A stretch of DNA of 64,000 nucleotides from Homoserinimonas sp. OAct 916 (lineage in GTDB: Bacteria; Actinomycetota; Actinomycetes; Actinomycetales; Microbacteriaceae). Both the position numbers and the translations under genes were made by a program. Of the stretch, positions 22,159 to 32,405 are shown piece by piece (within the stretch, counting starts at the first letter, position 1; each line of letters begins with the position of its first letter). The stretch spans positions 1 to 64,000 of the forward strand of contig NZ_QJHB01000005.1 in NCBI RefSeq assembly GCF_003260275.1. Direction: 5' to 3'. Under the pieces are notes generated by a model. The model was not told where the DNA came from. It worked only from the letters and a program-made list of their open reading frames with translations, and made no database searches.

Positions 22159-22625
22159 TTCTCAAATGTCCTTTCCACCGGGGAGACGATGACCGTCGCC
22201 CCGTCGATCCCGTAGACGGTGACGTGTTCTCCGAGGGCGAGTTCAGTGTTCGCCGGCTGGTCGAGTCGTGCGCTCCAGATCTCACCGTTGGCAAGCCGAA
22301 CCTGACCGGAGCCGAGCGTCAGCGGAATGATGACGATGCCGTCGAGACCGATCACGGCGTCGGTGTTCGATCTGGCCGGGTCGCCGCCTTTCTTCAACGC
22401 TTGAAGGAGAGGCGGCCTGAGCACTGTCAGCAGCAGGAGAGCTAGAACCGCTGCGACGATGATCTGCCCCCACCAGGGCACGCCCATCAGCCCGGAGAGC
22501 AGGCCGCCGAGGCTTCCCAACGCGATCATGAGGAATGTGAACTCCAGGGTGAACATCTCGATCACGACAAAGATCAGGATCAAGGCCAGCCACACAATCC
22601 AGGCGTAGCTCAGAATGTCGTTCAT
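22155..22625 (-). CDS. NfeD family membrane protein
   Basis: About 156 residues. Three hydrophobic helices (about 5-80, including WIVWLALILIFVVIEMFTLEFTF) precede a C-terminal OB-fold domain (GLDGIVIIPLTLGSGQVRLANGEIWSARL, then GEHVTVYGIDGATVIVSP). This is the short NfeD form without protease domain, partner of SPFH proteins. The ATG at 22625 has AAAGGGGG 8 nt upstream; an ATG at 22634 is too close to that site, and the frame opens further upstream without support. Confidence 0.9.
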   Translation of the reverse strand: MNDILSYAWIVWLALILIFVVIEMFTLEFTFLMIALGSLGGLLSGLMGVPWWGQIIVAAVLALLLLTVLRPPLLQALKKGGDPARSNTDAVIGLDGIVIIPLTLGSGQVRLANGEIWSARLDQPANTELALGEHVTVYGIDGATVIVSPVERTFEN

Positions 22626-22690
22626 CTGGTTCATCCCCCTTTCGACCATCGGTCCTATCACCTATGAAACTAGCAGTCGAACCCGCAGAC

Positions 22691-22720
22691 TTGACGTGAA
22701 AAGGGGTATTCTCGTAACTT
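22691..22720 (+). promoter_or_regulatory. Promoter of SDR gene
   Basis: TTGACG (22691-22696), an 18-nt spacer and TAACTT (22715-22720) resemble a housekeeping sigma promoter. An AAGGAG ribosome site follows near 22786 ahead of the GTG at 22798. Confidence 0.45.
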
Positions 22721-22797
22721 CGGTGTCGAATGCGTGCGACACTTTCACGCACGTGCCCGAACCGACCCCAGCACCTCAGTCACCCAAGGAGCACACC

Positions 22798-23562
22798 GTG
22801 TCACAACCCCTGGTTCAAGGATCCCTCAACGGCAAGCGGGCTCTGGTCACCGGAAGCTCGCGGGGCATCGGCGCCGAGACGGTCTCCTATTTTGCTGAGG
22901 CGGGCGCGAAGGTCGTCATCAACTACCGCAATAAAGAGGCGCGAGCCCTCAAACTGGCCGCGCAGTTGGCCGAAAAGGGCGCCACCGTGATCACTGCCGG
23001 GGCCGACCTCACCGACCCCGCGTCGGTTGCCGGCATGTTCGAGCAGATCAATGCAGCATACGGCGGACTCGACATTCTGGTGTTGAACGCCTCGGGCGGA
23101 ATGGAATCGGGGATGGCCGCCGACTATGCAATGGTGCTGAACCGGGATGCCCAGGTGAACGTCTTGACGCAGGCACTTCCCCTACTCGGCCAGGGCTCAC
23201 GAGTCGTTTTTGTGACCAGTCACCAGGCGCACTTCATCCGCACCACCGAGACGATGGCCGAATATGACGTGGTGGCCCGGAGCAAGCGTGCCGGAGAAGA
23301 TGCATTGCGCGAGATGCTGCCGGAGCTGGAAGCGCGGGGGATCGAGTTCGTTGTGGTCTCCGGTGACATGATCGAAGGCACCATCACCGCAACGTTGCTG
23401 GAACGCATGAATCCGGGCGCGATCTCCTCACGCAAGGAATCGGCTGGCCGCCTGTACAACGTCAGTGAGTTCGCCGCCGAGGTGGCCCTCGCCGCGGTCG
23501 AACCGGTTCCGGCCGATAACACCCGCTACGTCGGTGACACTTCGAGTTTCGTCGCTGAATAG
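22798..23562 (+). CDS. SDR family oxidoreductase with Y-X6-K site
   Basis: A 254-residue short-chain dehydrogenase. NAD(P) motif TGSSRGIGAE (19-27), LNASGG (97-101), a serine near 141 (VTSHQAHF), and Y156/K163 spaced by six residues rather than the classical three. Y-X6-K is the spacing seen in enoyl-ACP reductases FabI/FabL. Substrate unknown. GTG start with AAGGAG 6 nt upstream; the open frame begins much further upstream, but that part has no SDR similarity. It converges on the cyclohexanecarboxylate-type operon with only 2 nt between the stop codons. Confidence 0.85.
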   Translation: MSQPLVQGSLNGKRALVTGSSRGIGAETVSYFAEAGAKVVINYRNKEARALKLAAQLAEKGATVITAGADLTDPASVAGMFEQINAAYGGLDILVLNASGGMESGMAADYAMVLNRDAQVNVLTQALPLLGQGSRVVFVTSHQAHFIRTTETMAEYDVVARSKRAGEDALREMLPELEARGIEFVVVSGDMIEGTITATLLERMNPGAISSRKESAGRLYNVSEFAAEVALAAVEPVPADNTRYVGDTSSFVAE

Positions 23563-23564
23563 TC

Positions 23565-25727
23565 TCACTTCCAGCCGCGCCCGATTGCGGTGCCCACACG
23601 CAGACCATCCTCGAACGCGGCGACCGCGTTCATGCCATCAATGCGCCTGGCCCCGCCGATCACGGTGTGGGGGATGTTTGTACCCGCCAGTGCCCGGGCG
23701 GGCTCGCGCAGGGATTCCTGGCCGGCGGCCAGCACCAGGGTGTCGGCCTCGACCAATTCTTCGTTGCCGTCCGCAGAAATCCAGACTCCGCGCGGTTCGA
23801 CACTGAGATAATCGACACCGGTCAGGGTGCGCACTCCGGCCGCCCGGATCGTCTGCACCACCGCCCACCTGGTGGTCACGCCCATTCCGCGGCCGATCGA
23901 TCCGCTGCGGCGCATGAGAGTGATCTGCCTGGCTGGCCTGGCCAGCGGCTGCGTCGAATCGGGGTCGTCCGAAACGCGGGCCCGGGCGCGAAACTCCCGG
24001 CGCCTGTTCGCTGACCCTGGTGCCTGATACCCGTATCGACAGCCATCGGCGCACTCCACCAACAGATGTGCCAGATCGACGCCGATCCCGCCGGCTCCGA
24101 TGATCGCCACCCGTTCGCCGATGGCATCCGGGTCACGAAAGGCCGTGGCGTAGTCGACCATCTTCACCTCGTCGCCACCCGGCAGCCAAACCTCGCGCGG
24201 ACGCACCCCCGAGGCGATGATCACGTGATCGAATTCGGCGACCTGCGCGGCCTCGTTGACCCGCGCATTCAGCAGCACCTGCACGCCGAGTCGTTCCAAT
24301 TCGTTCTCGAAGTACCGCACCGTCTGAAGAAAGTCGGCCTTGCCGGGCACCATGCCAGCCATCAAGAACTGACCACCGATGCGCGCGTCGGCCTCGAACA
24401 GGGACACCCGAGCACCCGCTGCCGCCAATGCGCGGGCTGCCTCCATCCCTGCAGGGCCGGCACCGACCACGGCGACCGCGGGGCCGGTGCGGCTGATAGA
24501 CCTGGCTGGCTCAGGCTGTGGCGCGGGTACCTCGAACTCCCGTTCACGTCCGGCGCGCGGATTGACCAGGCATGAAACCGGCTGCGTGCCGAACGACCGG
24601 TCGATGCAGGCCTCGTTACAGCCGATGCACGTGTTCACGAGCTGTTGCCGGCCGCTGAATGACTTTGCCACGATCTCGGGGTCGGCAAGAAAGGGGCGGG
24701 CCATCGAGATGAGATCGGCGTGGCCGGCAGCAAGGATGGTCTCGGCCTGCTCCAGCTTGTTGATGCGCCCGGAGGCGATCACCGGTTGCGTGCGGCCCGC
24801 ACTTCGCAGCACTCCACGGATGCGTGACGCCGTGTCGACCCAGATGCCGTGCGGTACCAGGGTCTGCACGGTCGGAACCCGCGACTCGTGCCAGCCGATG
24901 CCGATATCGAGGGCATCCGCTCCGGCCGCGACGAGTGTGAGCGCCTGGTCGTCAACCTCGGCCTCCGTGGACGAGCCGGGCATCAGATCATCACCGGACA
25001 GGCGCACCAGGAGCGGGAGGATGCCGATCGCTGCCCTGACCGCGGTGACCACGGCGACCGGGAATGCCAGCCTGCGCCCGGCGTCGCCACCCCAGCGGTC
25101 CTTTCTGCGGTTGGTCAGCGGGGACACGAACTGGTTGAGCAGGTATCCTTCTGAACCCATCACCTCGACCGCGTCGAAGCCGAGGCGAGCGGCGTGCTCC
25201 GCACCTCGGGCGAAATCAGCGATGGTCTCCCGAAGGTGGTGTTCGTCAAGTGCAACCGGGGTGCGTCGTGAGAATGTGCTGTAGACGGCTGACGGTGCAA
25301 CCGCGTCGAGGCCTTCGTCGGTGGGCAGGGCATAGCGGCCGGCGTGGAAAAGTTGCAGCGCGATCTTTCCCCCAGCGGCGTGCACCGCGTCGACGACGAC
25401 GGCCAGGCGTTCCTGGTGGCGGGGTTCGTTGATCAGCATGTAGCCGGGACCGCCGGCGCCCTCGCGGTTCACAGCGGCCCCGCCGGTGACGATCAGTGCG
25501 GTGCCGCCGGCCACCCGCTCGGCATAGAACGCGGCAAGGGCCTCACCGTCGTCGACGGTCTCGAGGTTGAGATGCATGGAACCGGTCATGATGCGGTGGG
25601 GGAGAGCAAGGGTTCCGATGGTGACCGGGGACCTGGCGTAGGGGAATTGCGCTTGCGGAGTCTGGGCATGTGGAGCCTGGCCGGTGATCGGTTCACCTGC
25701 CGTCTCGGCACTGCCTGCCGCAGTCAC
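23565..25727 (-). CDS. 2,4-dienoyl-CoA reductase-like FMN/Fe-S/FAD oxidoreductase
   Basis: A 720-residue enzyme of the FadH/old-yellow-enzyme group. The N-terminal TIM barrel (about 30-370) has LFHAGRYA, SPLTNRRKDRWGG and SMARPFLADPE; the Fe-S cluster cysteines are in CIGCNEACIDRSFGTQPVSC; the C-terminal half has an FAD site (VVGAGPAGMEAARAL) and a second nucleotide site (AIIGAGGIGVDLA). It reduces conjugated C=C bonds of acyl-CoA-type substrates. Last gene of the four-gene operon, overlapping the upstream SDR by 4 nt. In the proposed cyclohexanecarboxyl-CoA pathway it would reduce a cyclohexadiene or cyclohexene intermediate. Confidence 0.88.
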   Translation of the reverse strand: MTAAGSAETAGEPITGQAPHAQTPQAQFPYARSPVTIGTLALPHRIMTGSMHLNLETVDDGEALAAFYAERVAGGTALIVTGGAAVNREGAGGPGYMLINEPRHQERLAVVVDAVHAAGGKIALQLFHAGRYALPTDEGLDAVAPSAVYSTFSRRTPVALDEHHLRETIADFARGAEHAARLGFDAVEVMGSEGYLLNQFVSPLTNRRKDRWGGDAGRRLAFPVAVVTAVRAAIGILPLLVRLSGDDLMPGSSTEAEVDDQALTLVAAGADALDIGIGWHESRVPTVQTLVPHGIWVDTASRIRGVLRSAGRTQPVIASGRINKLEQAETILAAGHADLISMARPFLADPEIVAKSFSGRQQLVNTCIGCNEACIDRSFGTQPVSCLVNPRAGREREFEVPAPQPEPARSISRTGPAVAVVGAGPAGMEAARALAAAGARVSLFEADARIGGQFLMAGMVPGKADFLQTVRYFENELERLGVQVLLNARVNEAAQVAEFDHVIIASGVRPREVWLPGGDEVKMVDYATAFRDPDAIGERVAIIGAGGIGVDLAHLLVECADGCRYGYQAPGSANRRREFRARARVSDDPDSTQPLARPARQITLMRRSGSIGRGMGVTTRWAVVQTIRAAGVRTLTGVDYLSVEPRGVWISADGNEELVEADTLVLAAGQESLREPARALAGTNIPHTVIGGARRIDGMNAVAAFEDGLRVGTAIGRGWK

Positions 25728-26587
25728 GACGAAGCGTGCGGCAAGTCATCGGGCCGGGTGCCGTGGGTTGGCCGCTCCGGCAGCCGGAGCGGATCGCTGG
25801 TGTCGTGGTAGTACGGGGGTGCGGCCACGGTCATCCCGCCGTCGACGGCCAGCACCTGGCCGGTGATGTAGCCCGCCTTCTCGGAGAGCAGAAACTCGAT
25901 CGCGTTCGCCATGTCATCGACGGTGCCGGCCCGACCAAGCGGGATGGCCGCCAACACGGTCTCCACCGGGGCCATGCCGGGCATCGAATAGAAGTAGTGC
26001 AGAGAGTCCGATTCGATCAGTCCGCCGTTCACCGCGTTCACCGTGATGCCGTAACCGGCGAACTCAACGGCCATGAAGCGCACGAACGACTCGATCGCGG
26101 CCTTGTACGACCCCAGCGCCGCGTACGTGGCGAAGGCGCGCGTGGAGCCGTAGCTGGAGACGGCCACGATCCTTCCGCCGTGATCCATCAGCGAGACCGC
26201 CTGCTGGGCTCCCAGCACGAACGGGCGCACGTTCATGCCGTAGGAACGATCAAGATGGTGGATCTTCAGGTCGAGAATCTTCCTGAATGCCGACGCCGCG
26301 GCGTTGTTGATGAAGTGATCGAGCCTGCCGTACCGGTCGGCGACCTCGTCGAAAAGCCGCATGATGTCTTCCGGGTTCTCCATATCAGCCTGCACGGCGA
26401 ACCCGCCCCCGCCCAGCCGTACCGCCTCAGCGACCACCTCGTCGGCGAGGTCTTTGTTGGTGCGGTAGTTGACCACGACGGAGGCGCCCTGGGCTGCCAA
26501 GAGGAGGGCCAGTCGGCGTCCGATTCCCCGGGACGACCCGGTGATCACCGCAACCATGTCCCGGCGGCTCGCATCCGTTGTGGTCAT
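25724..26587 (-). CDS. SDR enoyl reductase, ChcA/FabL-like (Y-X6-K)
   Basis: A 287-residue SDR. It has TGSSRGIGRR (17-25), NNAAASAF (94-101), VAVSSYGS with the catalytic-region serine (144-145), Y155 and K162 with six residues between them, then VDGGMTVAAPP near the end. The Y-X6-K spacing is typical of FabI/FabL enoyl reductases. Size and context fit 1-cyclohexenylcarbonyl-CoA reductase (ChcA) of ansatrienin and phoslactomycin producers, which performs enoyl reductions on the way to cyclohexanecarboxyl-CoA; this assignment is inference. Overlaps its neighbours on both sides by 4 nt. Confidence 0.82.
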   Translation of the reverse strand: MTTTDASRRDMVAVITGSSRGIGRRLALLLAAQGASVVVNYRTNKDLADEVVAEAVRLGGGGFAVQADMENPEDIMRLFDEVADRYGRLDHFINNAAASAFRKILDLKIHHLDRSYGMNVRPFVLGAQQAVSLMDHGGRIVAVSSYGSTRAFATYAALGSYKAAIESFVRFMAVEFAGYGITVNAVNGGLIESDSLHYFYSMPGMAPVETVLAAIPLGRAGTVDDMANAIEFLLSEKAGYITGQVLAVDGGMTVAAPPYYHDTSDPLRLPERPTHGTRPDDLPHASS

Positions 26588-27771
26588 GGTTGGTCCTTTC
26601 GATCACGAGCCCGTTCGAACACGTCGTGGGCGACAACCGTCTTCTGGATCTCGTTGGTGCCCTCCTCGAAGCGCTGGGCGCGCGCGTCTCGGTACACCCG
26701 CTCGATCGGCTCCGACTTCATGTAGCCCCGGCCGCCGTGCACCTGGAGGGCCTTGTCGGTGACCCGGGTGAGCATGTCGACGGCAACCATCTTCGCCATC
26801 GATGACAGGGCGCCCGCACGGTCGGTTCCGCGTTCCCATTCGTCGGCGGCGTGCAGCACCAGTGCCCGGGCCGCCTCGATGTCGGCCTCGTTCTCGGCGA
26901 TCATGAACGCGATCGCCTGGCGGGAGCTGATGGGCTTGCCGAAGGTGACCCGGTGCCTGGAGTAGTCGACCGCCAACTGCTGGGCACGCTGGGCGAGGCC
27001 GACACAACTCATCGCCACCGAGATACGGCTCGGGGTGAGAAACCCGCCGAGGGCAATGGTGAGTCCGTCACCTTCGGCACCGAGCCGGTTCGTTACCGGA
27101 ACCGGGGTGTCTGAGAACGTCAGGCTGGCGTGGTCGGTGCCGTGCACGCCCATTGTTCTCGAAGTGTCTTCGACTGTCACACCCGGCGCATGCCGGTCGA
27201 CCAGCAGGGCGACGGTGCCCTGTTTGCCGCTTGAGCCAGCGAGGCGGGCGAACAGGAGCCAGTAGTCGCACCTCACTCCGAAGGTGATCAGGTGTTTGCG
27301 CCCGGTGAGCAGGTAGCCGTCTTCGGCCGGGCGCGCCGTGCAGGTGATGTCGGCGCCGGAGCCGTTGTCAGGTTCGGTGAGGGTGAATGCCACCAGGATG
27401 TCGCCGCGCACCGATGGGGTCACGAACGTTTCCCGCTGCCACGGGTCGGCGTACGGGTTCATCGACCGCCAGGTGCCGTTGATCACGTGCACGAGCATGC
27501 GCACGGAGGCGTGGGTGCGGGAGAAGAGCTCCATCAGCAGCATCCACTGGCTGAAGCTCAGCCCGGCGCCACCCAGGTCGACCGGTGCTGCTAGCCCAAG
27601 AAAGCCCTCGGTCCTGAGGGCGTCAAACAGTTCTCCAGGCGCGACATCGTCAGCCTCGATCCGGCTGCCCCACAGTTCGCCGGGACCTTCCACCCATTCA
27701 CGCACCCGGTCACGGAGAACGCTGAATTCGTGCTGCACCAGCTGCTGTCCGCGGCCGTCCGGTGTCGACAT
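26584..27771 (-). CDS. Acyl-CoA dehydrogenase (cyclohexyl-CoA type, proposed)
   Basis: A 395-residue FAD flavoenzyme of the acyl-CoA dehydrogenase family. It has the FAD-binding FTLTEPDNGSGAD, FGVRCDYWLLFA, RISVAMSCVGLAQRA, LQVHGGRGYMKSEPIERVYRDAR and the catalytic base E370 in FEEGTNEIQK. It would introduce or move a double bond alpha-beta to a CoA thioester. The equivalent in ansatrienin/phoslactomycin loci is the acyl-CoA dehydrogenase called L. The ATG at 27771 lies 62 nt inside the end of the upstream fusion gene and has AGAGAGGTAGG before it. Confidence 0.88.
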   Translation of the reverse strand: MSTPDGRGQQLVQHEFSVLRDRVREWVEGPGELWGSRIEADDVAPGELFDALRTEGFLGLAAPVDLGGAGLSFSQWMLLMELFSRTHASVRMLVHVINGTWRSMNPYADPWQRETFVTPSVRGDILVAFTLTEPDNGSGADITCTARPAEDGYLLTGRKHLITFGVRCDYWLLFARLAGSSGKQGTVALLVDRHAPGVTVEDTSRTMGVHGTDHASLTFSDTPVPVTNRLGAEGDGLTIALGGFLTPSRISVAMSCVGLAQRAQQLAVDYSRHRVTFGKPISSRQAIAFMIAENEADIEAARALVLHAADEWERGTDRAGALSSMAKMVAVDMLTRVTDKALQVHGGRGYMKSEPIERVYRDARAQRFEEGTNEIQKTVVAHDVFERARDRKDQP

Positions 27772-30700
27772 TGATACCTACCTCTCTCTCATGGTCTGCC
27801 ACCACTGAGAGTCGTTGCGGGACAAACCCGGCCGCACGATCGCGCAGGATGAATTTCTGGATCTTGCCGACCGCGTTGCGCGGGATCTCATCGATCACCT
27901 CAAGTCGTTCGGGCCAGAAATACTTGGACACGCCGTTCTCGTCCAGGAACTGCTGCAGCTGCCGGAAGGTCAGGCGTTTGTCCGGGGCCAAGGTGATGAA
28001 TGCACAGGCACGTTCACCGAGCCGGGGATCCGGCATGGCCACGATCGCCACATCGCTGACGGCATCATGGGTGTACAACAGTTGTTCGATCGAGGCGACC
28101 GGGATCTTCTCGCCTCCCCGGTTGATCACGTCACGTACACGGCCGGTGATGCGAAGGAAGCCACCGTCGTGGAGGGTGGCCAGGTCGCCGGTGCGGTACC
28201 AGCCGTCGGAGGTGAACACTTCGGCGGTGAGATCGGGACGTTCCAGGTAGCCGTCGAATACTGTGGGGCCGTTGACCTCGAGGTTGCCCTCGACACCTGC
28301 TGGGAGCACCGACCCGCTGTCATCGGTGATCCGCAACTGCACTCCTGGCAGGGCGCGGCCTTCGGTGCCCCAGACCTTTGTGGACTCATCAAGCGGGGTG
28401 GCCAGGGTGGCAAGCCCGGTCTCGGTCGTGCCGAAGGCGCCGCAGACCATGGTCTGAAGCGTGCGGGTGGCGCGTTCGGCGAGCACTCGGGGAACGGCGG
28501 CGCCGGTCGCGACGAAGATCCGCAACGTGCGCGGTGGGGGAGCGCCCTCGGCCACGGCCTGCACCAGGTCGGACAGGAACGGCGTCGCTGCTTGGACAAA
28601 CGTGCCTTCCCACCGGTTCAACACCTCGAGGGCACGACGCGGATTCCAGGTCCCCTGCACGATCTGGGGTGACCCGAGAGCGAATGCCAACCACATGCCG
28701 TAGAGGAACCCGGTCTGGTGGGCCAGCGGAGACGGCACGTAGATCACATCATTGGCATTCAGGCCGAGGTGCTCGATCTCCATCTGCACGGCGCGGCTCA
28801 GGGTGCGATGCGTGTGCACCACGAGTTTCGGTTCTCCGGAGGTGCCCGAGGTGAACAGCAGTTGCGCGGGGTCGTCTGGGTTCGGCTCCACGGCTTCGAT
28901 TCGAGCGCGGTCGACGATGGCTTCGGACATCGCGCGGTGCCAGCCGTGCCACTGCACAGTCGCATGCTGGCACTCCGGCAGGACGCGCGCAGTGCCTGGA
29001 GTGTCGTGCATCACCACCACGTGTTGCAATGAAAACGGCTCCGGGTCCGGGGAACCGGGAGCCCGGCTGGCGGCCGCCACGGCGGCCTCATCGAGCATGC
29101 GTGCGATCTCATGGGCATGGGCGCGCGCACGGAAGTTGTCGATGACCACGAGCACGCGTGCGCGTGAGCGCCTCAGCGCGAAAGACACCTCATGGGTGCG
29201 GAAGATCGGCATGATCGGGCAGATCACCGCACCGATGCGCATGGCCGCCGCCGCCACGATCACGAACTCCTTGTCGTTCGGCAATTGCACAGCCACCCGG
29301 TCACCGGGCTCAACCCCCAAGCTCAACAGTAGAGCTGCAACGCGGTCCACTTTCTCGTCGAGTTCACCCCAGCACACGTGGACGGTGCGGTCCCAACGCG
29401 CATCCACGACGGCAAGGGCGTGCGGCCGAGCGTTCGCCCAGTGCCGGATCCACCCGGGCCCAGTCATCGTTTCTGCGGTGGCCGGGGTCTCCGCAGGGCC
29501 AACCGCGTGCAGCGGGCGGCCCGCAGAGGTCGCCGGCCTCTTCTCGACCTGAAAATCGAGACCCATGGTCTGCATGGCCTCGATGAACCGCGGGTAGGAG
29601 ATGCGGTAGGCGTTCGGGTAGGTGAGGGTGGAGCGCCCGGTGGCCGCCGATGCTGCGACCGCCAACGACATCAACACCCGGTGATCGTTGAACGAGGACA
29701 GGTGGGCGTTGTCCAACTGCTCCACCCCGCGGATGAGCAGGTTGCCACCGTCGACCGTGACGTCGGCGCCCATGCTGTTCAATTGCAGCATTGCAGTCAC
29801 CCGGTCGGATTCCTTCAACCGCACGTGCTCCACGTTGCGCAGGATGCTTTCACCACGAGCGGTCGCCGCCAGGGTCGACAGGATTGGCAACATGTCCGGA
29901 AGGTCGCGGCAGTCGACGTCGATCGGCTCGAGGGGCCCACCGTCGTGGCTCACGCGCAACCCACCACTTCGCCGTTCGACACGCATGGGCAGGCCCATAC
30001 CTCGGATCACGTCGAGGAAGCCGGCTTCGGGATGGTCGTAGTCGGTTGCGCGCATGCCGGGCATTCCGGTGAGCAACACGTCGGCCGGGTGCAATGCGGC
30101 CACAGCCAGGCCGAACGCGGCCGAGCCGATGTCGGGCGGCAGGGCGAGTTGGGCGGGAACGGCGTGCTGGTTCGGTTTGATGTCAAAACGACGCCAATCC
30201 GCCGATGCGGTCACGATCAGCCCGAATTGGCGCATCATCGTCACCGTCAGTTCGACGTAGTTGCGCTCATTCAGCTCGCCATTGACCACAATCGTGGTGT
30301 GCTTCGTCGCGAACGGTGCCACCAGCAGCAACGATGAGATCCACTGGGAGAGCGTGCCGCTGATGTGCACGACGCCTCCGCGAGGGCGTCCGGGGGTAAC
30401 GGTGATGGGCGGGCGGTCATCCGCCGACTTCGTCTCGATTCCCATCTCGCCCAATGCGCGCAGCAGGGGACCAATGGGTCGGTGCTCGAAGTAGCGCTGC
30501 CCGGTGATTGTCAGTGGTGTTTCGCATAGCGCGGCCAGCCCGACCATGAAGTAGAGGGTGGTGCCGGAACTGCCCACCGAGAGGGCATCACTGGCGGGCC
30601 GGTATCGGCCTCCGTGCACGAGCATCGTGTCGCCGTGGATGTCGATGTCTGCGCCGAGTTGTTTCAGTAGTTGCACCGTGTAGTGCACGTGCGTGGCGTC

Positions 30701-30835
30701 ACTCAGCCCGGTGATCGAACTGGTGCCCCGGGCCAGCGAGGCGAGGATCAGTGCCCGGTGGGCGTGATACTTCGAGTTCGGTACCTGAACGGTGCCGGTG
30801 ACCTTTGCTGATGTGCCGACGACTGCGAGATGCAT
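27710..30835 (-). CDS. EPSP synthase-like / acyl-CoA ligase fusion (cyclohexanecarboxylate pathway)
   Basis: A 1041-residue fusion. Residues 1-430 form an EPSP-synthase (AroA) fold: PNSKYHAHR (K22, with Tyr instead of the usual Ser after Lys), GSSGTT (88-93), HRP (118-120), SQW (Q164), LKESDR (K341) and NDHR (383-386). A Pro/Ala linker (about 432-458) joins an AMP-forming ligase: FTSGTSGEPK (661-670), YRTGDLA, GRVRDVINRGGEK, and catalytic lysine in RNAVGK (K991). The AroA-like part is diverged and probably acts on shikimate itself; the ligase makes the CoA ester. Matches the JK protein of phoslactomycin loci as I recall it. First gene of the operon; GGATGGGA precedes the ATG. Confidence 0.88.
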   Translation of the reverse strand: MHLAVVGTSAKVTGTVQVPNSKYHAHRALILASLARGTSSITGLSDATHVHYTVQLLKQLGADIDIHGDTMLVHGGRYRPASDALSVGSSGTTLYFMVGLAALCETPLTITGQRYFEHRPIGPLLRALGEMGIETKSADDRPPITVTPGRPRGGVVHISGTLSQWISSLLLVAPFATKHTTIVVNGELNERNYVELTVTMMRQFGLIVTASADWRRFDIKPNQHAVPAQLALPPDIGSAAFGLAVAALHPADVLLTGMPGMRATDYDHPEAGFLDVIRGMGLPMRVERRSGGLRVSHDGGPLEPIDVDCRDLPDMLPILSTLAATARGESILRNVEHVRLKESDRVTAMLQLNSMGADVTVDGGNLLIRGVEQLDNAHLSSFNDHRVLMSLAVAASAATGRSTLTYPNAYRISYPRFIEAMQTMGLDFQVEKRPATSAGRPLHAVGPAETPATAETMTGPGWIRHWANARPHALAVVDARWDRTVHVCWGELDEKVDRVAALLLSLGVEPGDRVAVQLPNDKEFVIVAAAAMRIGAVICPIMPIFRTHEVSFALRRSRARVLVVIDNFRARAHAHEIARMLDEAAVAAASRAPGSPDPEPFSLQHVVVMHDTPGTARVLPECQHATVQWHGWHRAMSEAIVDRARIEAVEPNPDDPAQLLFTSGTSGEPKLVVHTHRTLSRAVQMEIEHLGLNANDVIYVPSPLAHQTGFLYGMWLAFALGSPQIVQGTWNPRRALEVLNRWEGTFVQAATPFLSDLVQAVAEGAPPPRTLRIFVATGAAVPRVLAERATRTLQTMVCGAFGTTETGLATLATPLDESTKVWGTEGRALPGVQLRITDDSGSVLPAGVEGNLEVNGPTVFDGYLERPDLTAEVFTSDGWYRTGDLATLHDGGFLRITGRVRDVINRGGEKIPVASIEQLLYTHDAVSDVAIVAMPDPRLGERACAFITLAPDKRLTFRQLQQFLDENGVSKYFWPERLEVIDEIPRNAVGKIQKFILRDRAAGFVPQRLSVVADHEREVGINVDTGRPRTAAGAARIQRSP

Positions 30836-30929: not shown

Positions 30930-31307
30930 TCAGAGGCTGATTGCGAACCAGAAGCCGAGGCCGGCTGCCAGAATCGCGAGCACCATCATTCCGAGTCCAT
31001 GAACCAGTGCCGCGGCTGCCCGTTCCTCTTGAAACAGTCGAACGGTTTCGAAGGTGGCGGTGCTGAAGGTGGTGAACCCGCCGAGAAAGCCGGTGCCGAT
31101 CACAAACAGCCATTCGTCTGGCAGCGTGCCGACCAACGCGATCCCGGTGAGAAAGCCGAGCAGGAGGGAGCCGGTGATGTTGATCACGCCGGTTTCCAGC
31201 GGAAACGTGTGTACGCGCAAACCCCGCAATACGCCATCAATGAAGAATCGGCATCCGACGCCGATTCCGCCGGCGACGGCCGCGGCGATGAACAGCAGCG
31301 GAGTCAT
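30930..31307 (-). CDS. crcB: Fluoride channel CrcB/Fluc, subunit 1
   Basis: A 125-residue four-helix membrane protein. It has the pore motif NITGSLLLGF (43-52) and GGFTTFSTATFE (76-87) with the phenylalanines that line the fluoride path. Two Fluc paralogues side by side are usual in Gram-positive bacteria, where they may form antiparallel heterodimers. The ATG at 31307 overlaps the stop of the second crcB by 4 nt; the open frame extends upstream in antisense-like sequence and is discounted. Confidence 0.92.
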   Translation of the reverse strand: MTPLLFIAAAVAGGIGVGCRFFIDGVLRGLRVHTFPLETGVINITGSLLLGFLTGIALVGTLPDEWLFVIGTGFLGGFTTFSTATFETVRLFQEERAAAALVHGLGMMVLAILAAGLGFWFAISL

Positions 31308-31765
31308 CGTGGGCCACCGCCTGTAAGAGTGGGGCCAGTCCTGGTGCCGGGGCCCAGAAGGCCGGCGCACAGTAGCCCCGCCCATGTTGCCAGTACGCCG
31401 AGGATGAGGGTACCGAACGCGTAGGCGAGCCCGAGCCCGACATTGTCGCCGACAATCAACAGCACGGTGTCTGTTGCGAAAGCACTGTAGGTGGTGAAAC
31501 CACCGAGCGCGCCGGTGCCGACCGCCAGTCGGAGGCGATGGGCGGTGACGTCGCCGGCGGAGCGGCGTGCGAGCCTCCCGAGAAGAAACGCAAGCAGGAA
31601 GGCACCAATCACGTTGATGGTGGCAATGGCCACCGGAACGGGGCCTGCGGCCGGGATCATCAGACCGAGGGCCTCCCGGCCGGCGGTGCCAAGGATGCCG
31701 CCGAGCGCCACCAACCCCAGATTTCCCCAATGCCGGTGCGCAGGTGGTGTGCGTCTGGGCGTCAT
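31304..31765 (-). CDS. crcB: Fluoride channel CrcB/Fluc, subunit 2
   Basis: A 153-residue paralogue of the preceding channel. It shows RWG-like HWGNLGLVALGGILGTAGREAL, NVIGAFLLAFLLG and GGFTTYSAFATD. A hydrophilic N-terminus of about 13 residues precedes the first helix; the ATG at 31765 is preferred over one 54 nt upstream. A TTGACA lies 23 nt before the start within a 14-nt repeat. No crcB riboswitch was recognised. Confidence 0.9.
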   Translation of the reverse strand: MTPRRTPPAHRHWGNLGLVALGGILGTAGREALGLMIPAAGPVPVAIATINVIGAFLLAFLLGRLARRSAGDVTAHRLRLAVGTGALGGFTTYSAFATDTVLLIVGDNVGLGLAYAFGTLILGVLATWAGLLCAGLLGPGTRTGPTLTGGGPR

Positions 31766-31785
31766 GCTTAGCGACTGAAGTCTTG

Positions 31786-31799
31786 TTATGTCAAGTAAT
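31786..31799. repeat. 14-nt direct repeat, copy A
   Basis: TTATGTCAAGTAAT, identical to 32545-32558. It contains TTGACA on the minus strand ahead of the crcB pair, and abuts the stop codon of the HdeD-like gene. Confidence 0.7.
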
Positions 31800-32405
31800 T
31801 TAGAGCGCGGCCACGACATCCCGGCCGAAGCGGAAAGCGCGGAACAGTTGGCTGATGCCGGCCACGATGAGGAAGATTCCCGCGACGATCGCCAGCGTGC
31901 TGATCGCCTGCATCGGCACGGACAGCACGACGATGCCGGCGAGGATGCTGATCACGCCGAAGACGATGCCGACCCAACGTGACGAGTCGTCGGCGGATTC
32001 GGCGATCGAAGCGACGCCTTCGATGATCCAGGCGATTCCGACCATCAGGCTCAGCAGAACCAGCGTTGTGTCGGGGTTGCGCAGCATGAAGATACCGGCG
32101 ACAAGAACCAGAACTCCGAGCAAGAGGTCGAGTATGCGCGCGCCGGCGTTCAGGCCGGTGGCGACCAGCCCGGTGACCACGCGGATCGCGCCGATCACGA
32201 GAAAGTACAGGCCGAACAGCACTGCGATGACATTCAGCGTCGCCGCGGTGGAGAACACCGCCCAGGCGCCCAGGATGACCGCCACGAGGCCACCGACGAA
32301 CATGGCGACCCGAATCAGGTTGATCGTTGACTTGCCGAGCTCGCTGGCACGTTTCTGAAACGCGAATGACTGGTTGAACTGCGGTTGCCCTGATTGCGTG
32401 GACAT
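31800..32405 (-). CDS. HdeD/DUF308 family membrane protein
   Basis: A 201-residue protein with six predicted membrane helices in three pairs (VAMFVGGLVAVILGAWAVF, LDLLLGVLVLVAGIFML, GIVFGVISILAGIVVLSVP), the architecture of HdeD-like DUF308 proteins. In enterobacteria HdeD is linked to acid resistance; the role here is unknown. The ATG at 32405 has AGGAG upstream. The gene is bracketed by two identical 14-nt repeats. Confidence 0.82.
   Translation of the reverse strand: MSTQSGQPQFNQSFAFQKRASELGKSTINLIRVAMFVGGLVAVILGAWAVFSTAATLNVIAVLFGLYFLVIGAIRVVTGLVATGLNAGARILDLLLGVLVLVAGIFMLRNPDTTLVLLSLMVGIAWIIEGVASIAESADDSSRWVGIVFGVISILAGIVVLSVPMQAISTLAIVAGIFLIVAGISQLFRAFRFGRDVVAAL

Follow-up and report, generated by a model that had tools for sequence, protein, structure and literature searches.

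A predicted cyclohexanecarboxyl-CoA operon away from polyketide synthases in Homoserinimonas sp. OAct 916, and its probable use for omega-cyclohexyl fatty acids

Shikimate is the precursor of the cyclohexanecarboxylic acid (CHC) unit of ansatrienin, and by the enzyme content of the ansJ-M/chcA genes of Streptomyces collinus that pathway is presumably shared with the operon studied here. The operon occupies positions 23565-30835, on the minus strand, of a 64,000-nucleotide stretch of the genome of Homoserinimonas sp. OAct 916 (contig NZ_QJHB01000005.1, positions 1 to 64,000), hereafter called the window. In phoslactomycin-type systems the first gene product, PlmJK, presumably has an AroA-like half in addition to its ligase. 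The published gene table of the lactomycin/phoslactomycin cluster gives, in sequence, plmJK (ligase), plmL (short-chain-CoA dehydrogenase), chcA (cyclohexenylcarbonyl-CoA reductase) and plmM (NADH:FMN oxidoreductase) (PMC5852498), with equivalents named lmP1-P4 and pnP1-P4 and with Streptomyces sp. HK803, ACT232 and S. platensis SAM-0654 as hosts. Another paper (PMC4581413, citing Cropp et al. 2000) states that transfer of a CHC-CoA cassette into S. avermitilis gave doramectin without feeding.

Compared by gene table, the window operon matches the phoslactomycin-type cassette in enzyme set, in the fusion within the first gene and in gene order (PMC5852498). It differs from the phoslactomycin clusters in having no polyketide synthase (PKS) nearby, in lying in a genome without modular PKS and in having a 3-ketoacyl-acyl carrier protein (ACP) synthase II (KAS II) and a second ligase in trans, and from the ansatrienin cluster in that the window holds no ansamycin genes. 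That the predicted product is CHC-CoA derived from shikimate is well supported and, in our judgement, highly probable. Taken one step further, we give a probability of about two in three to the reading that the operon makes CHC-CoA from shikimate and that this most likely serves as primer for type II fatty acid synthesis, leading to omega-cyclohexyl fatty acids.

An operon of four overlapping genes

The four open reading frames (ORFs) of the operon, with the two domains of the first, are the following.

27710..30835, minus strand: gene 1 (plmJK-type), AroA-like domain fused to an acyl-CoA ligase, 1041 residues
29546..30835, minus strand: AroA-like domain of gene 1, residues 1-430
27806..29470, minus strand: acyl-CoA ligase domain of gene 1, residues 456-1010
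26584..27771, minus strand: gene 2 (plmL-type), acyl-CoA dehydrogenase with Acyl-CoA_dh domains, 395 residues
25724..26587, minus strand: gene 3 (chcA-type), FabL-like short-chain dehydrogenase/reductase (SDR) with S145 and Y155-X6-K162, 287 residues
23565..25727, minus strand: gene 4 (plmM-type), old yellow enzyme (OYE) or 2,4-dienoyl-CoA reductase-like 4Fe-4S flavoenzyme with Oxidored_FMN and Pyr_redox domains, 720 residues

Neighbouring genes overlap by 62, 4 and 4 bases, which is consistent with a single transcript; scans for promoters and terminators performed no better than on shuffled sequence. A first-pass annotation of the window had already described four overlapping minus-strand genes for an AroA-like/ligase fusion, an acyl-CoA dehydrogenase, a Y-X6-K SDR and a dienoyl-CoA-reductase-like flavoenzyme, and both the ORFs and their domains were found as it had claimed. 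It had also equated the set with that of phoslactomycin and ansatrienin producers, with which the identical plm gene order agrees, as do close relatives that lie next to modular PKSs or within a cluster of ansamycin type.

In gene 1, matches to PF00275 (1.6e-81, residues 9-421) and PF00501 (3.3e-72, residues 464-864) are accompanied by one to PF13193; the AroA-like and ligase domains share a single ORF in relatives as well. The top NCBIfam model for the ligase domain was TIGR03208, cyclohexanecarboxylate-CoA ligase. As its score of 442 bits stays below the cut-off of 792, we regard the domain as a relative of that ligase and not as the same enzyme. The nearest solved structures were 3oic (FabL, an enoyl-ACP reductase) for the gene 3 SDR and 1ps9 (2,4-dienoyl-CoA reductase, 4e-140) for gene 4.

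Active sites and the proposed reactions

When aligned to their homologues, all four window enzymes were found to have intact catalytic residues. The P-loop and A10 lysine of the ligase domain are kept in 93-95 of 95 homologues, Glu370 at the catalytic position of the gene 2 dehydrogenase is invariant among 93, S145, Y155 and K162 of the gene 3 SDR are invariant across 78, and the same holds for Y195, H280 and the four cluster Cys residues of the gene 4 flavoenzyme across 80.

The AroA-like domain shows a different kind of conservation. With residues numbered as in E. coli AroA, all 101 AroA-like domains compared carry S23Y, N26H, R100Y and S197E, have S169 deleted and have lost K411 (Ile in 100, Val in 1), and all 101 keep K22, R27, G96, R124, S170, Q171, D313, K340, E341, R344 and R386. 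Going by the roles established for these positions in 5-enolpyruvylshikimate-3-phosphate (EPSP) synthase, the 3-phosphate pocket and one phosphoenolpyruvate (PEP) contact are changed and much of the core is retained. Such a pattern would be expected of an enzyme whose substrate is shikimate and whose product is not EPSP; that the reaction is a dehydration we infer. The possibility that the domain serves as the EPSP synthase of the cell was rejected, as the genome encodes a separate housekeeping AroA on contig C51 and the shikimate-3-phosphate and PEP contacts are altered, although the domain scores 312 bits with the EPSP synthase model TIGR01356, over its cut-off of 287.

From gene content and order, active-site conservation, homology to the polyketide-cluster cassettes and co-occurrence, the following route can be proposed. 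The AroA-like domain would catalyse a 1,4-elimination of water from shikimate instead of enolpyruvate addition, whereupon the fused ligase would convert the resulting acid to its CoA thioester. The ring double bonds would be reduced by the dienoyl-CoA-reductase-like enzyme together with the FabL-like SDR, which is of the ChcA type, with the acyl-CoA dehydrogenase probably setting or removing a double bond between eliminations. The CHC-CoA so formed would most probably prime type II fatty acid synthesis via FabH, a gene for which is present in the genome, giving for instance 11-cyclohexylundecanoic acid.

Distribution and gene neighbourhoods

Among 400 Microbacteriaceae genomes there were 43 matches to the cassette, one of which (G064) was a ligase-only match at 41% and was excluded, leaving 42 cassette genomes. 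Searching some 85,000 species genomes with the AroA-like domain gave 215 relatives, the best 80 of which belong to Arthrobacter, Sinomonas, Cellulomonas, Streptomyces, Actinoplanes, Lentzea, Solirubrobacterales, Eremiobacterota and three Gammaproteobacteria bins. The cassette is widespread without a PKS, in Microbacteriaceae, Micrococcaceae, Cellulomonas, Solirubrobacterales and Eremiobacterota. The complete order AroA-ligase-dehydrogenase-SDR-OYE was seen in 68 of 100 fetched loci, and this recurrence of the five-domain set is far beyond chance. Several of the 100 loci are cut by contig ends.

Twelve of these 100 loci, from Arthrobacter and Cellulomonas, have no SDR, and six from the Arthrobacter group have no OYE. 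The SDR-less Arthrobacter cassettes (L064, L067, L073, L078, L081-L083, L089, L094 and L108) lie near tuf, and also near ribosomal protein genes where this was inspected; if the pathway is complete in these organisms, another SDR must substitute. The OYE-less cassettes (L054-L059) have thiolase and FadB-like genes upstream. In eleven Arthrobacter or Sinomonas loci tuf flanks the cassette, and most of these have ribosomal protein genes as well, a setting that resembles that of core genes more than that of an antibiotic cluster.

Ten Eremiobacterota loci (L072, L092, L093, L101, L102, L104, L106, L110, L115 and L121) have a gene for 3-deoxy-D-arabino-heptulosonate-7-phosphate (DAHP) synthase, with which the shikimate pathway begins, adjoining the cassette upstream on the opposite strand, often with a more distant KAS II adjacent, and this neighbour supports shikimate as the source.

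Copies within or near polyketide clusters (L061, L107, L112 and L116, the clusters being typed by gene content and not by product) are 50-68% identical to the window proteins and belong to the same AroA-like family. In L090 and L112 a modular PKS lies directly upstream of the cassette and a LuxR/LAL-type regulator downstream, an arrangement resembling the phoslactomycin cluster, and L107 likewise has a PKS upstream. In S. seoulensis A01, whose copies also show 50-68% identity to the window proteins, the cassette, at 227.5-234.9 kb, adjoins a DegT/DnrJ/EryC1 aminotransferase with a start like that of 3-amino-5-hydroxybenzoate (AHBA) synthase, and in the same region PKS genes take up about 46 kb (170-216 kb), with a candidate amide synthase of the N-acetyltransferase type at 168.7 kb. 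Copies of this aminotransferase, 90-93% identical, occur at five further Streptomyces cassette loci, and a type II dehydroquinase gene lies beside the one of the five that was checked for it. The aminotransferase matched no AHBA synthase model in NCBIfam, its label resting on context, and by that context we take these six loci for ansatrienin-like ansamycin clusters. Two further Streptomyces loci (L119 and L132, from S. albus B-1811 and S. sulphureus) hold second, fusion-only copies beside a LAL-type regulator, having no dehydrogenase, SDR or OYE, in genomes that also carry a full cassette.

These neighbourhoods also bear on whether the operon might run in the degradative direction and serve the breakdown of cyclohexanecarboxylate or shikimate-like acids. 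The ligase is nearest to cyclohexanecarboxylate-CoA ligase (AliA type), cyclohexane-1-carbonyl-CoA dehydrogenase is among the enzymes that the dehydrogenase resembles, and the thiolase and FadB-like genes at the six Arthrobacter-group loci would fit such a role. The window proteins, related in ligase and dehydrogenase family to those of cyclohexanecarboxylate catabolism, nevertheless fall far under the cut-offs of these systems (ligase 442/792, dehydrogenase 123/575 bits), in which no fused AroA-like domain was found. No plasmid record reaches 80% coverage of the fusion, and the matches listed as aliA span the ligase half only. Cassette copies also occur in ansamycin-type or PKS settings and elsewhere adjoin DAHP synthase and KAS II, and the neighbours in the window suggest no catabolic operon, so that we consider degradation very improbable.

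The neighbours in question are a pair of genes for CrcB, a fluoride channel, immediately upstream of the operon (30933-31819, minus strand), and a PRK07806-family SDR (22615-23562, plus strand) that is convergent with the operon, the two stop codons being 2 bases apart. This SDR was rejected as a fifth operon gene in view of its opposite strand, its other SDR subfamily and the lack of a counterpart at that place in the loci of relatives.

Use of cyclohexanecarboxyl-CoA and descent of the cassette

Since 1981, omega-cyclohexyl fatty acids have been known from a small number of mesophilic actinobacteria. Those of Alicyclobacillus, Curtobacterium pusillum and Propionibacterium cyclohexanicum correspond to the proposed end product of the window operon, and C. 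pusillum, for which they have been reported, provides a mesophilic precedent within Microbacteriaceae (PMC5023266; PMC3426160), in agreement with what the first-pass annotation had stated for Curtobacterium. For Herbiconiux, cyclohexyl-C17:0 'may be present' in the genus (PMC10011130), and a Herbiconiux bin (L129) holds the AroA-ligase-dehydrogenase core together with the second ligase; this is the one named genus for which cassette and fatty acid profile were compared within Microbacteriaceae, with the core seen in one bin. In the open-licence literature we found no paper naming genes for omega-cyclohexyl fatty acids in actinobacteria of the C. pusillum or P. cyclohexanicum type.

The absence of a PKS near the operon, also proposed in the first-pass annotation, held for the whole 64-kb window. 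The genome, rated 100% complete, has no modular PKS, and its full-length KAS I/II-type genes are FabF and an accessory KAS II alone; the two other matches to the family are short and weak. CHC-CoA would for this reason most likely go to fatty acid synthesis. The features outside the window that bear on its use are as follows.

G000:C62:220552-221772: accessory KAS II, a full-length ketoacyl-synthase match
G000:C62:220549-223565 (L148:8547-11566), minus strand: pair of this KAS II and a FadD-like ligase (ligase 2), unlinked to the operon
G000:C22:133972 (L137:1480-2646): type III PKS-like (chalcone-synthase-like) gene, on another contig than the operon
G000:C93:136903-137754 (L136:955-2052): KAS III-like gene (PRK09258)

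The accessory KAS II is 71% identical to a KAS II directly 3' of the operon in Microbacterium sp. STN6, and a FabF-type KAS II adjoins the cassette in many loci. In seven Streptomyces loci, operon and KAS II are followed by a ligase with 61-64% identity to ligase 2, and Herbiconiux-type genomes have one near the operon with 54-56% identity to it. Within the Microbacteriaceae sample, ligase 2 was found in 37 of the 42 cassette genomes and in 49 of 400 overall (5.1 expected, p 3e-36) or, counted by genus, in 12 of 14 cassette genera compared to 21 of 85 overall (p 2e-7), the latter being the fairer figure since genomes are not independent. Ligase 2 thus tracks the cassette although it is unlinked in many genomes. 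The adjacency of KAS II and the co-occurrence of ligase 2 support fatty acid synthesis as the sink, and the unlinked pair (G000:C62, about 220.5-223.6 kb) probably assists lipid use. Omega-cyclohexyl fatty acids are, as judged from these genes, the likely, if unproven, main use in strain OAct 916, where they may, as the first-pass annotation had proposed, affect membrane packing.

KAS II alone was rejected as a marker of the cassette in Microbacteriaceae, its association being weak (4 of 10 KAS II genomes carry the cassette, p 0.014) and one genus having it without the cassette. Five genomes of this genus, g78 (G239, G279, G314, G370 and G393), have a KAS II that is 66-68% identical, with a murI-like gene near it in G239.

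The type III PKS and the additional KAS III-like gene, together with the fact that Streptomyces cassettes serve polyketides, would agree with CHC-CoA being made mainly for a small specialised metabolite, for example as starter for the type III PKS. We find this unlikely: that gene lies on a separate contig and its nearest named family is DpgA, the substrate of which is malonyl-CoA, while the genes that track the cassette encode a FabF-type KAS II and an acyl-CoA ligase, and several Arthrobacter cassettes lie between tuf and ribosomal protein genes, which is unusual for a specialised-metabolite cluster.

Against a lipid role fed by fully formed CHC-CoA weigh, nonetheless, that none of the four operon proteins reached the equivalog cut-off of any CHC enzyme in the NCBIfam search, that the type III PKS might draw on CHC-CoA instead, that omega-cyclohexyl lipids to our knowledge have not been reported for many cassette-bearing Arthrobacter and Streptomyces, and that no isomerase of the type of ChcB, the delta3,delta2-enoyl-CoA isomerase of S. 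collinus, turned up, though no search aimed at ChcB was made. This last point, and the degree of reduction that may vary where SDR or flavoenzyme is missing (12 and 6 loci), would suit a pathway ending at, or tuned to, another ring acid, such as a cyclohexenyl or hydroxylated cyclohexyl carboxyl-CoA. For the window operon such an outcome seems quite unlikely, as none of the four genes is missing from it, their active sites are intact and they follow one another as in the phoslactomycin cassette, a supplier of CHC-CoA. We retain fully reduced CHC-CoA, used for priming fatty acids, as the preferred reading.

In a tree of the AroA-like domains (a quick search with Shimodaira-Hasegawa-like approximate likelihood ratio (SH-aLRT) support, the root being unsure owing to an extremely long outgroup branch), the window belongs to a cluster of 25 rows (support 98) together with Micrococcaceae, Cellulomonas and Microbacterium STN6-like genomes, and the 18 other Microbacteriaceae lie elsewhere. 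This position makes transfer of the cassette between lineages probable. Copies linked to a PKS or to ansamycin genes lie inside a Streptomyces/Actinoplanes group (20 rows, support 99), most other members of which have KAS II and ligase 2 in place of a PKS. We tentatively suggest, at somewhat less than even odds, that the cassette is first of all an ancient pathway for membrane lipids, found across actinobacteria and Eremiobacterota together with a KAS II and a second ligase of its own, and that the cyclohexyl starter was taken over from it by antibiotic producers at a later time.

The enzymes are of a known kind, in a widespread PKS-free setting that is largely unrecognised; this setting and the partner genes that track the cassette are of most interest. 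The operon offers a concrete candidate gene set for omega-cyclohexyl lipids, one that predicts which genera should make them, with KAS II and the second ligase as two added candidate partner genes. It extends the range of the cassette to uncultured Eremiobacterota with an adjoining DAHP synthase, and it suggests that the cyclohexyl starter of antibiotics may derive from lipid metabolism.

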